Shown here one piece after another: positions 48,234-63,342 of a stretch of DNA of 64,000 bases. A program made the translations under genes and the position numbers. The DNA lies in NCBI GenBank assembly GCA_026394015.1, contig JAPKZA010000236.1:1-64000 (forward strand), given 5' to 3'. The notes under the pieces were generated by a model. The model was given only the letters and a program-made list of their open reading frames with translations, ran no database searches and had not been told where the DNA came from. The DNA is from Acidobacteriota bacterium. GTDB taxonomy: Bacteria; Acidobacteriota; Terriglobia; Bryobacterales; Bryobacteraceae. Within the stretch, counting starts at the first letter, position 1, and each line of letters opens with the position of its first letter.

Positions 48234-49703
48234 ATGCGTTTTCTCCTTGCGGCTTTGTTCTCTTTCTCGTTGCTGGCCCAGCCGGCGAAACCGGTGGGGG
48301 AGCCGCCGCCGGTGCAGAAGAAGAGTTCGATTGTGATCGGCGGCAAGACGCTGCAGTACACGACGACGACCGGGCGGATGCCGCTGCTGAACGAGGCGGG
48401 CGAGCCGGAGGCGCATGTTTTTTATGTGGCGTATACGCTGGACACGCCGACGCCGGTGAACAAGCGACCGCTGATGGTGGCCTTCAACGGAGGCCCGGGG
48501 TCGGCGACGGTGTGGCTGCACCTAGGGGTGTTGGGACCGCGCTACATTCCGATGCAGGATGATGGATCGTATCCGCCGCCGCCGTACCAGGTGAAGGACA
48601 ACCCGCAGACGTTTTTGCCGTTTACGGATATGGTTTTCGTGGATCCGGTGGGTACGGGATATTCGCGGGCGGCGAAGCCGGAGTTGGGCAAGAAGTTCTG
48701 GGGGGTGCAGGGGGACATTGCGAGCGTGGGCGAGTTCATTCGACTGTACTTGGGGCGGTATAACCGGTGGTCGTCGCCGCTGTATTTGATTGGGGAGAGT
48801 TATGGGACTTTCCGGGCGGCGGGTTTGTCTGGTTGGCTGGTGGACCGGGGGATGGCGTGCAACGGGATCGTGCTGGTTTCTTCGATTTTGCAGTATCAGA
48901 CGGCGCGGTTTTCGAAGGGCAACGATCTGCCGTATCCGCTGTTTCTGCCGACGTATACGGCCATCGCGTGGTACCACAAGAAGCTGCCGGCTTCGCTGCA
49001 GCAGGCGGGGTTGAAAGAGGCGACGGCGGAGGCGGAGAAGTTTGCGTTGAATGAGTACTCGGTGGCGTTGATGAAGGGCGATCGGCTGACGCCGGGGGAG
49101 CGGCAGGCGACGGTGGAGAAGTTGAGCCGGTTGACGGGCTTGAGCAAGGAGTATTTGGAGCGGAATGACTTACGGCCGGAGATCATGCACTTCATCAAGG
49201 AGCTGCGGCGGAGCGAAGGGAAGGTGGTGGGGCGTTTGGATGGGCGGTTGACGGCGGTGGAAGGGAACAACGGGGACGAGGTGGCGGGGTTTGATCCGTC
49301 GATGACGGCGATTCGGGCGCCGTATACGGCGGCGTTTAACGACTACGCGCGGCGGGAGTTGGGCTATGAGTCAGACTTGCAATATTACATTTTGGGCGGG
49401 GGCATTGGGCCGTGGGACTACGGTGCGGGTGGGCAGAACAAGTACGTGGAGACGGCGGATATTCTGCGGGACGCGTTTGCGAAGAACCCGTACATGAAGG
49501 TGTATATCGGATCGGGTTACTACGATTTGGCGACGCCGTATTTTGCGACGGAGTATACGTTTAGCCATATGGGTTTGCCGGCGGAATACAAGAAGAACAT
49601 CACGACGCGGATGTACGAGGCGGGGCATATGTTTTATAGCGTGAAGCCGGCGTTGGCGCAGTTGAGCAAGGACGTGGAGGCGATGGTGACGGGGGTACGA
49701 TAA
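48234..49703 (+). CDS. Secreted S10-like serine carboxypeptidase
   Basis: 489 residues from ATG 48234 with signal peptide MRFLLAALFSFSLLAQ. Catalytic elements: the oxyanion segment NGGPGSAT, nucleophile LIGESYGTFRAAG, an acid in SGYYDLATP and the histidine in MYEAGHMFY. It also has the conserved MVFVDPVGTGYS. This is the peptidase S10 pattern common in acidobacteria; likely degrades peptides in the periplasm or outside. The gene begins 5 bases after the MFS gene. Confidence 0.85.
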   Translation: MRFLLAALFSFSLLAQPAKPVGEPPPVQKKSSIVIGGKTLQYTTTTGRMPLLNEAGEPEAHVFYVAYTLDTPTPVNKRPLMVAFNGGPGSATVWLHLGVLGPRYIPMQDDGSYPPPPYQVKDNPQTFLPFTDMVFVDPVGTGYSRAAKPELGKKFWGVQGDIASVGEFIRLYLGRYNRWSSPLYLIGESYGTFRAAGLSGWLVDRGMACNGIVLVSSILQYQTARFSKGNDLPYPLFLPTYTAIAWYHKKLPASLQQAGLKEATAEAEKFALNEYSVALMKGDRLTPGERQATVEKLSRLTGLSKEYLERNDLRPEIMHFIKELRRSEGKVVGRLDGRLTAVEGNNGDEVAGFDPSMTAIRAPYTAAFNDYARRELGYESDLQYYILGGGIGPWDYGAGGQNKYVETADILRDAFAKNPYMKVYIGSGYYDLATPYFATEYTFSHMGLPAEYKKNITTRMYEAGHMFYSVKPALAQLSKDVEAMVTGVR

Positions 49704-59907: not shown

Positions 59908-59997
59908 GGTGAGGTGCGAGAGTGGTTGAATCGAGCAGTCTCGAAAACTGCCGTACCTTTACGGGTACCGTGGGTTCAAATCCCACCCTCACCGCCA
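59908..59997 (+). tRNA. tRNA-Ser (anticodon CGA)
   Basis: A 7-pair acceptor stem GGTGAGG/CCTCACC (59908-59914 with 59987-59993), G discriminator and encoded CCA (59995-59997). The anticodon stem GCAGT/ACTGC holds loop CTCGAAA, giving CGA for TCG codons. The long variable arm (CCGTACC...GGTACCG) is a class II serine feature, and the T loop GGTTCAAATCC is canonical. The adjacent downstream DNA holds a degraded integrase, so this tRNA is the likely attachment site of an old island. Confidence 0.95.
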
Positions 59998-60416: not shown

Positions 60417-60668
60417 TTGCAGGCCACGCTGACGGCTGTGGCGGCTGCGGCGACGATTGCGCGGGACGGGACCACGACGCTGTCGGCGACGGGTGGGTCG
60501 GGTGGTGGGGCGGTGACGTATGCGGTAACGGCGGGCGGGGCGAACTGCACCCTCAGCGGTTCTAAGCTGACGGGCAAAGCGGTTGGCACCTGCACGGTGA
60601 CAGCAACCAAGGTGGCCAATAGCAACTACAATGCAGCCACCGCGGGGGTGACGATTACGGTCCAGTAG
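60417..60668 (+). pseudogene. C-terminal Ig-like repeat fragment of a large surface protein
   Basis: The frame starts inside a domain and encodes one complete bacterial Ig-like module: TIARDGTTTLSATGGSGGGAVTYAVTAGGANCTLSG, then GKAVGTCTVTATKVANSNYNAATAGVTITVQ and a stop. This strand pattern, with the CTVTATK stretch, is a repeat unit of large adhesin-like or calcium-dependent proteins, where it is usually the last unit. No signal or earlier repeats survive. Read as a rearranged tail joined to the integrase relic. Confidence 0.55.
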
Positions 60669-60692: not shown

Positions 60693-60739
60693 CGGCTCTC
60701 TTCGTTCCGACCGACCGTGGATCGGAACGGAGAGAGCCG
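60693..60739. repeat. Long hairpin, left copy of a twin
   Basis: Arms CGGCTCTCTTCGTTCCGA (60693-60710) and 60722-60739 pair over 18 positions with a single mismatch around an 11-base loop. Nearly the same 45-base element recurs at 63298-63342. It lies 54 bases outside the left inverted repeat of the first IS6-family relic. It could be an intrinsic terminator or a separately mobile palindromic unit. Confidence 0.7.
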
Positions 60740-60792
60740 TCTTCTTTGGGGGAGCGGGCTCGCCCCCACTGGGGGCGCGAAATTGCTGGATT

Positions 60793-61525
60793 GCTCTGGC
60801 GCAAATTCCGGGTTGAGACAATTTCGGCCCCTACGGACGTATCGATGGATCCCAACCCTGATCAGGCGGCCAACGAGGCTTCCCATTTCGAACTGCTCCT
60901 TGTCGATCTTCTCCACCAGACCGATGCCACTGATTACCGCCTTGGCCGTCTCAAAGTTCTTCAGCGCCTGCATCGGAGGGAACCCCGGCTTGATCCGTCG
61001 ATGATCTGGCTCGATCCAATTTTCCACGTACTTGCTGCTGCGAAGGATCGCCCGCTGCGGCAACCCGCCACTTTCCATCAGATAGGCCTTCCGATACGCC
61101 ACCTCACGAAAGGACAGCGCAGACGCGACCAGCGTTACCTTGGCCGGTACCCGTTGTCCCTTCATCGCTCTGCACAGAAACGCTTTGGCCGCGCTGACAT
61201 CCCCTGGTCGGCTCAAAATGGAGTCTACTGTTTTGCCCACTCTGTGGACCGCTCGGTAGGGAGGCGCCCCTTCACGTAGGTCTCCTCCATCCGCGACGAG
61301 GCACCAACCGGCCGGACATAGCGTTACCAGTGCTACTCGAACTCCGGCGAATGCTGCTGTCGCAGAATCTTCGTGCGCACCCGATTTATGCCCCGCTCGC
61401 TCATCATGCTGTCGCAGTCTCGGTAGCTCGGCTTGCAGTTTGAGCACCGGCGAACCTCCCTTCGAGCGAAGAGAATGGTAGCATCCCCGCATCGTCGCCC
61501 ACGCTGCCGGGCTTGCACCAGAGCC
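60793..61525 (-). mobile_element. Degraded IS6-family insertion sequence, copy 1
   Basis: About 733 bases bounded by GCTCTGGCGCAAA (60793-60805) and TTGCACCAGAGCC (61513-61525), inverted copies matching the IS6-family end consensus (GGCTCTG-TGCAAA type). On the minus strand the transposase is recognisable: PSYRDCDSMMSERG, PEFE, RPVGASSRMEETYVKG, then after a frameshift YRAVHRVGKTVDSILSRPGDVSAAKAF and RSSKYVENWIEPDHRRIKPGFPPMQALKNF. Frameshifts, an internal stop after the zinc-finger/HTH-like start and a replaced catalytic context make it inactive. No flanking target duplication is visible. Confidence 0.75.
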
Positions 61526-61682
61526 GAAATGAACAAAACCTCACAATATCCTGCCGGTTCTAAAGCCGGAACCGGAGACGTCGCATCTAGCACCTTAAGA
61601 GCGAGTTCGACCACCTCGTTTCCGGCCAAGCCAGAGCTTGATTGACAGAAGCCGCGGGCCATGGGAGAGTTCGAAGGCAAGT

Positions 61683-62519
61683 ATGTCCACTTCTGTAGTT
61701 TCTTTTCTGCGAGAGATGCCGAGCCTAAAGCTGCTTCGGGGGAGAATCAACGACCATCCGGTATACGCGGCCGTCCAACGCCAGTCCGCCCTCGGCGTCT
61801 TCGCGGCCCGGCACGTATTTGCGGTGTGGGATTTCATGAGCCTGCTCAAACGGCTACAGCAAGAACTCACTTGCGTAATCGTCCCGTGGACGGCACCTGC
61901 CAATCCGGCGGCGGCACGACTGATCAACGAAATCGTACTTGGAGAAGAGTCCGATGAAACGCCCACGGGTTTCCTCAGCCACTACGAACTGTACCGCAGA
62001 GCCATGGATGAGATTGGGGCGCCGACAGTTTGGATTGACGACTTTCTGCGAAGGCTCCAACGAGGGGAGCCGGTCTCGACGGCTCTTGGCAACTGCGGCG
62101 CGCCTGAGGCGGTCGTTCAGTTTGTAGAGACGACGTTCTCGATCCTTACCGAGGGATCTGTTCACGAAATAGCGGCGGTATTTACCCTATCGAGGGAGGA
62201 TCTCGTGCCCGATATGTTCGTTCGGGTAACCACGGAATGCGCCATGTTCCGCGGTGACTACCCCCATTTTTTCTACTACCTGGATCGGCACATCGAAATC
62301 GATTCCGGGTCTCATGGCCCGCTGGCGCACCGCTTACTGGCTGACCTTTGTGGAGACAACGCTGAACGATGGCAGCAGGCTGAATCCGCCGCCTGCCGCG
62401 CTCTCACGGCGCGTCTCCGCCTATGGGACGGGGTCCTGGCTGCGATTCAGGACCCGACGACTGAACTGGCGCGTCCCGGGCAGGAAGCCGGTCGTGCTCC
62501 GGTGCTAGTTCCGATTTGA
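61683..62519 (+). CDS. DUF3050 protein, intact, between two IS6 relics
   Basis: 278 residues from ATG 61683 (AAGG 7-10 bases upstream). It matches the DUF3050 family closely: LRGRINDHPVYAAVQ, VFAARHVFAVWDFMSLLKRLQQELTCV, RLINEIVLGEESDETPTGFLSHYELYRRAMDE and ECAMFRGDYPHFFYYLDRHIEID, HRLLADLCGDNAERW. The conserved His and Glu helices resemble heme-oxygenase-like folds, possibly with a metal site (from memory of the family, not checked). The last 20 or so residues (after RLWDGVLAAIQ) look unlike the family and read through the left end of IS copy 2. This is the only well-preserved gene in the 60-64 kb island. Confidence 0.75.
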   Translation: MSTSVVSFLREMPSLKLLRGRINDHPVYAAVQRQSALGVFAARHVFAVWDFMSLLKRLQQELTCVIVPWTAPANPAAARLINEIVLGEESDETPTGFLSHYELYRRAMDEIGAPTVWIDDFLRRLQRGEPVSTALGNCGAPEAVVQFVETTFSILTEGSVHEIAAVFTLSREDLVPDMFVRVTTECAMFRGDYPHFFYYLDRHIEIDSGSHGPLAHRLLADLCGDNAERWQQAESAACRALTARLRLWDGVLAAIQDPTTELARPGQEAGRAPVLVPI

Positions 62520-63293
62520 GACAAATTTGGACACTCCTCCGACGTATCCATGGGATCAGGCGGCGCATGCGGCTTGCCAAGGCTCCGGCATCGTCGCCTT
62601 GGACCAACAGAGCGTACCCGTTTTGAACTGCTCCGTCTTGATCTATTCCGTCCGGTCGAGGCCATTGATTAGCCCTTTGGCCACCGCAACGCCCTTCCAT
62701 TCCAGCATCGGACGAGACTGCTGCTTGATCCCTTGATGGTCTTGCTCGTTCCAATTGGTTCGGTATTCGCTACGGCGAAGGATCAGCCGCTGCGGCAACT
62801 CGCCACTTTCCTTCAGATCCGCCACCGCCTAACGGGAGGCCGCCTCGGGTCCATCGTCATATTGATCGGTACCCGGCGTCCCTTCATCGATTTGTGCAGA
62901 AGCGCTTTGGTTGCGTTGAAATGTCCTCGCAGGCTCAACAAGAGGTCCTCTGTCTTGGCCGCCGCGTCGACCATTCGGTAGAAATGCACCGACTCTCCGC
63001 GCACCTTAGGGGGGTTTATCGATCCGCCCGGCGCCACCAACCGGCCCCGGGGTACCGGTTCCTGGGCTTCTCGAACTCCGGCGTGTGATGCTGCAACCAT
63101 CTCAAAATCATCGTGTGCGCCATCGCGCTGCCGCGCTCGCTGATCCTACTGACAAAATCTGGATAGCGCAGCTTGCGCCTCAGGCACCACCGAGCGCACA
63201 ACCAGACAAACTCGTCATCGAAATGGCGACCTGCGCATACGAATCTGGGCAGTGCCTCAGCTTCCCCCGCGCCGCTGGGTTTGCACCAGAGCC
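62496..63293 (-). mobile_element. Degraded IS6-family insertion sequence, copy 2
   Basis: About 798 bases bounded by the decayed end GCTCCGGTGC (62496-62505) and an intact-looking TTGCACCAGAGCC (63281-63293), the same end sequence as copy 1 in the same orientation. Minus-strand transposase pieces: FVWLCARWCLRRKLRYPDFVSRISERGSAMAHTMILRWLQHHTPEFEK and GAGWWR, then, in other frames, TQPKRF, SEYRTNWNEQDHQGIKQQSRPMLEWKG. Several frames and stops interrupt it. The two copies share the region just inside their left ends (TTGAGACAA...CGACGTATC). Confidence 0.75.
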
Positions 63294-63297
63294 CACG

Positions 63298-63342
63298 GGC
63301 TCTCTTCGTTCTGGTCGACCGGGGATCGGAACGAAGAGAGCC
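63298..63342. repeat. Long hairpin, right copy of the twin
   Basis: GGCTCTCTTCGTTC (63298-63311) and GAACGAAGAGAGCC (63329-63342) pair perfectly, and a TTTTCT run follows, so this copy resembles an intrinsic terminator for left-to-right transcription. It starts 4 bases beyond the right end of IS copy 2. Both arms and part of the loop match the hairpin at 60693-60739. Confidence 0.7.

Follow-up and report, generated by a model that had tools for sequence, protein, structure and literature searches.

The window (the whole 64,000-nucleotide stretch of DNA that was analysed) comes from an acidobacterial genome and closes with a region of few genes that follows hrcA-grpE-dnaJ and tRNA-Ser(CGA). 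Across positions 60693–63342, the features are arranged in the order hairpin, IS6 relic, DUF3050 gene, IS6 relic and second hairpin (Table 1). The preliminary description had drawn the outer limits of a supposed IS6 unit at these two positions, which proved to mark two copies of a 45-nt hairpin outside the relics, not the ends of insertion sequences.

Table 1. Features at the end of the window
Feature	Position	Strand	Basis
tRNA-Ser(CGA)	59908..59997	+	ARAGORN
Hairpin A, 45 nt, terminator-like, 25 nt past the end of ORF 60417-60668	60694..60738	+	
IS6-family relic, copy 1, 734 of ~821 bp	60792..61525	-	Alignment to intact genus IS6
DUF3050 gene (PF11251), 278 aa, intact; putative heme-oxygenase-like diiron enzyme	61683..62519	+	Pfam, relatives, structure model
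Non-family C-terminal extension of the DUF3050 frame: DPTTELARPGQEAGR, then IS-derived APVLVPI-stop	62450..62519	+	
IS6-family relic, copy 2, 799 of ~821 bp	62495..63293	-	Alignment to intact genus IS6
Hairpin B, 45 nt, T-rich tail, intrinsic-terminator-like, 4 bp beyond copy 2	63298..63342	+	

IS6 relics and flanking hairpins

Copy 1 matched the DDE_Tnp_IS240 and transpos_IS6 profiles with an E value of 2e-15, and copy 2 matched them weakly (E 0.004); both scores fall under the NCBIfam transpos_IS6 cut-off because the transposases have decayed. With an intact transposase from the genus as the query, both relics were found by tblastn at E 5e-47 or better. Open transposase frames of 237–243 residues survive in the IS6 copies of three same-genus genomes. 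Full-length copies in two genus genomes (G009 and G013) read GGCTCTGGTGCAAA/T ... TTTGCACCAGAGCC over 821–825 bp, with both ends, GGCTCTGGTGCAA and TTTGCACCAGAGCC, present; the copy in G014 has an altered left tip. In alignments with the full-length copies, left and right ends can be recognised in both relics, and terminal inverted repeats of ~14 bp (GGCTCTGGTGCAAA / TTTGCACCAGAGCC) are common to the relics and the genus copies, the left ends being degenerate. The transposases of both relics lie on the minus strand, so the two elements form a direct repeat around the DUF3050 gene. The proposal of two IS6-family relics in the same orientation was thus borne out by the profile and tblastn matches and by the ends, which match those of intact genus elements. 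The relics are 71% identical to one another and mostly 69–76% identical to the longer IS6 copies elsewhere in the genus. Full length (~820 bp), 14-bp inverted repeats (GGCTCTGGTGCAAA), a single DDE transposase and direct orientation of the paired copies are all as in the IS6 family (IS26 group); by contrast, both copies here are dead, with indels and frameshifts, and are without 8-bp target repeats.

To describe the decay, substitutions were counted by codon position against a reference of three agreeing intact copies. Values for positions 1, 2 and 3 were 0.13, 0.22 and 0.21 in copy 1 and 0.23, 0.20 and 0.22 in copy 2, compared with 0.06, 0.03 and 0.19 in an intact IS6 copy. Copy 1 carries eight indels and copy 2 seven. 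Because the changes do not spare codon positions 1 and 2, and because of the seven to eight indels in each, both relics have decayed without selection, to 0.18–0.24 substitutions per site (~0.2).

IS6 insertion produces an 8-bp target duplication. No such duplication was found at copy 1 (TGCTGGAT/GAAATGAA), at copy 2 (GCCGGTCG/CACGGGCT) or around the whole IS6-DUF3050-IS6 unit (TGCTGGAT / CACGGGCT). The duplication is also missing at intact IS6 copies of the genus, and in the relics target repeats are erodible at 0.2 substitutions per site.

The two hairpins are 88% identical over 52 nt and, on the plus strand, fold with −41.9 kcal/mol (A, z −4.3) and −36.6 kcal/mol (B, z −4.9). No further copy was found at useful similarity in the window's genome or in 18 genus genomes, no known RNA family was matched in Rfam, and an exact-pattern search of viral contigs returned none. 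The pair is possibly a set of duplicated terminators or an insertion scar. Its uniqueness in genome and genus, and its placement just outside the IS copies on both sides, would suit an event in which a cassette carrying DUF3050 entered a terminator and left direct repeats of ~50 bp, with IS6 arriving later. We regard this as improbable: no recombinase gene was recognised nearby, short of a systematic search, the hairpin was not found in viral contigs, and B, with its T-rich tail, may simply terminate the DUF3050 gene, and A the upstream ORF.

Frame, tail and constraint of the DUF3050 gene

The preliminary description had reported one intact DUF3050 gene between the relics, and this holds: the protein matches Pfam PF11251 completely (294 bits, E 9e-88, model positions 1–233 of 233), and its frame stays open, free of stops and frameshifts, for 256 codons. 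The start, placed by comparing five relatives from the genus, is ATG 61683 and not TTG 61638. The long N-terminal extensions seen in relatives, whose open frames reach 749 aa, appear to be read-through of open sequence that precedes the real start. No sigma-70-like promoter site was found for the gene.

At the other end, the frame had been said to run about eight codons past the left end of copy 2 and to take its C-terminus and stop from the insertion. The last seven codons (APVLVPI) and the TGA do lie inside the IS. The protein has 29 residues after the LWD motif, as against 7–13 in genus relatives and a median of 12 in 83 proteins, so the tail is not native to the family. It is predicted to be disordered, its 20-odd residues having pLDDT values of 53–58 in a model that is otherwise above 90 almost throughout. 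Since the conserved domain ends ~16 codons before the IS and the tail is of low confidence, the insertion supplied the stop but no working C-terminus.

A codon model was fitted to six genus sequences to estimate the constraint on the gene. Omega was 0.077 on the branch to the window's copy and 0.081 elsewhere (2ΔlnL 0.014), omega = 1 was rejected on that branch (2ΔlnL 39.7), and no relaxation of constraint was detected. The branch is long, with dS near 2 and close to saturation, and its omega therefore speaks largely for the period that preceded the insertions. For recent selection, the intact frame is the main and the sharper evidence. If the relics lay next to the gene while they decayed, a gene at their level of divergence would have escaped every nonsense change with a probability of 0.01–0.02, and ~7–8 indels would be expected in it at their indel density, where none is seen. 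As the preliminary description had suspected, the gene is probably still under selection next to relics that have changed at all codon positions.

GC3 is 65% in the gene, compared with 78–80% in its relatives and 75% in dnaJ of the same genome, which could reflect weak constraint or low expression. Together with the acquired junk tail and the decayed surroundings, the lower GC3 would also fit a gene already turning into a pseudogene, whose open frame is a matter of chance or recency. This we consider very improbable, given a frame without lesions, the retention of all invariant residues, and an omega of ~0.08 that shows no relaxation.

Family and putative function

Across 60 sequences, E88/E89, H100, E172, Y199, H203, D207 and H211 are invariant, and the set of three histidine and three carboxylate ligands is complete (E88 or E89, H100, E172, H203, D207 and H211). 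Six DUF3050 ligands have been described by homology to CADD, with a spacing that agrees with that of the window's protein (PMC4520260). The structure model (pLDDT 93) is a heme-oxygenase-like helical bundle whose best PDB match is HamA (9vwb; Z 32.5, 44% identity in the structural alignment), the one solved DUF3050 structure that was found; HrmI (Z 22.1), CADD (21.4) and UndA (21.0) follow. These last three heme-oxygenase-like dimetal oxidases have the fold (Z ~20–22) and the 3 His/3 carboxylate ligands in common with the window's protein but are only 12–18% identical to it and belong to other families with other substrates. The protein is thus a putative O2-activating enzyme, probably with a diiron centre, its metal content and activity being read from these resemblances.

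HamA, PvfA and MgoB belong to the same Pfam family and have all the metal ligands, but genes for fragin, pvf or mgo biosynthesis were not recognised next to the gene here or in the relatives examined. MgoB is encoded in the mgo operon, and mangotoxin was made without it, though the yield fell (PMC3298696). HamA and its counterpart PvfA are reported to be dispensable for forming the hydroxylamine intermediates that lead to valdiazen, and both fragin and valdiazen were still produced by a hamA mutant supplied with the dihydrosydnone N-oxide (PMC11659414). In the literature, no description was found of a substrate for stand-alone members, nor for any member apart from those in a few biosynthetic clusters. 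Across phyla, DUF3050 loci have no single gene neighbour in common. In Micromonospora and Kribbella (loci L038, L044, L059, L070, L072 and L084), DUF3050 lies near genes that resemble those for dehydrogenase E1 subunits, a dioxygenase and other metabolic enzymes, as judged by eye from their sequences, and these surroundings are possibly a biosynthetic cluster.

Origin of the arrangement

The genus DUF3050 proteins form one clade (100/100) in which the window's copy branches first. Because the dnaJ tree places the window's genome and its closest sequenced relative, G011, outside the five other DUF3050 carriers, the DUF3050 tree agrees with descent within the genus. The single clade gives no support to a recent import from a distant phylum. 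Among named records, the best match to the window's DUF3050 is an unclassified Acidobacteriota MAG.

In the five relatives, DUF3050 lies on contigs other than that of the dnaJ-tRNA-Ser locus. In four of them (G008, G009, G015 and G016) it follows a common flank block, downstream of a secretin-like gene; in G008 this gene ends the block and lysC lies on the other side, a side that G001 has in common with G008. The names secretin-like and lysC were assigned by us from the sequences. The variable secretin-like/lysC segment of G008 (L094 5830–12807) holds DUF3050 among other genes, and its counterpart in the window's genome is at ~49465–49470 of another contig (C54). In both the window's genome and G011, the secretin-like gene and lysC abut, with ~5 bp between them. 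With that position empty in G011 as well, relocation of the gene from it was not shown.

The tRNA-Ser locus was compared with seven relatives by blastn. In six of the seven, similarity stops at the tRNA or directly beyond it, and in G017 it reaches ~155 bp past the tRNA; this loss of synteny at or soon after the tRNA 3′ end suggests a variable spot in the genus. Site-specific integration at the tRNA was considered and rejected: its 3′ end is not repeated in the window, and its last 23 bases do not recur in the remainder of the contig, as far as 76.6 kb. Just past the window, at ~64933–75794 of the contig (C131; L099:1934–12795), an H-NOX (haem-NO-binding) protein is followed by a hybrid histidine kinase of 1578 aa that carries HNOBA/PAS domains, by two ORFs resembling response regulators and by another hybrid kinase, likely an NO- or O2-sensing signalling cluster. 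For timing, dnaJ dS to G011 is 0.72; relic decay (0.18–0.24) is less than half of this value (0.36), and the IS6 insertions are therefore probably younger than the split from G011.

The preliminary description had suggested that the arrangement may have been a mobile pseudo-compound unit. In such a fossil transposon, a single IS6 would have been duplicated around DUF3050, through a cointegrate or translocatable unit, and would have carried the gene to the tRNA-Ser locus. The direct-repeat arrangement stood, with both relics near full length. In a maximum-likelihood tree the two copies are sisters and each other's closest known relatives (98.2/98), and alternatives grouping copy 1 with G013 (AU 0.027) or copy 2 with G009/G014 (AU 0.006) were rejected; the relics also have 16 derived bases in common, where 6.5–9.7 are expected by chance. 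DUF3050 is found elsewhere in relatives and is missing from that place in the window's genome, and the missing target repeats are compatible with a transposon, as intramolecular IS6 events lose them (PMC7986276). Against movement as a unit, there is neither an 8-bp duplication outside the pair nor a second occurrence, no IS6 having been found beside the gene at any of 92 other DUF3050 loci (most covering ~5 kb either side, some less). Both relic branches are long, so that sisterhood could be partly long-branch attraction, the copies have no indels in common, and sisterhood would follow just as readily from the independent arrival of two members of a single resident subfamily. A transposon of this kind is a possibility that we hold with low confidence, and the arrangement is explained no less well by two IS6 insertions that happened separately.

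Known IS6 pseudo-compound transposons (for example Tn610, Tn4003 and Tn2680) likewise consist of a passenger flanked by a direct repeat of IS6; here, by contrast, the passenger is a chromosomal oxygenase-like gene, the copies are 29% diverged and no second occurrence was found. Plasmid copies of DUF3050 do exist (33 records, under 60% identity), and in the two such records inspected (H2 and H5, for which the gene table is incomplete) no IS was annotated beside the gene. The fuller version, in which the transposon moved a genus-native diiron oxygenase-like gene to the variable tRNA-Ser locus, an IS end became its stop and tail, and the gene stayed functional while its carrier decayed, is similarly tentative.

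The account that we favour, with moderate confidence, starts from a DUF3050 gene that belongs to the heme-oxygenase-like dimetal oxidase superfamily, is an ordinary part of the chromosome and lies in the variable stretch that follows tRNA-Ser(CGA). Elements from a single IS6 subfamily would have inserted on either side of it, probably more recently than the divergence from G011, and both copies would then have died and decayed in place. Copy 2 would have landed beyond the conserved domain, leaving a gene that stops at a TGA in the IS end after a short, presumably disordered tail. Selection probably still maintains this gene for an O2-activating enzyme, likely with a diiron centre. What the tool results show directly is that the relics exist and have decayed neutrally, that the gene is intact and constrained, that its tail is foreign to the family and that relatives carry the gene at a different location; we infer the order and number of the IS6 insertions, as well as the metal content and activity of the protein.

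The observation is real and its parts are ordinary, with nothing outside known kinds: the family and the IS type are both known, and the locus does not represent a new kind of system. What it offers is a small, roughly dated case of a single gene kept intact amid decay, with a stop codon supplied by an IS. Stand-alone, selected copies of DUF3050 such as this one are reasonable targets for learning what the family does.
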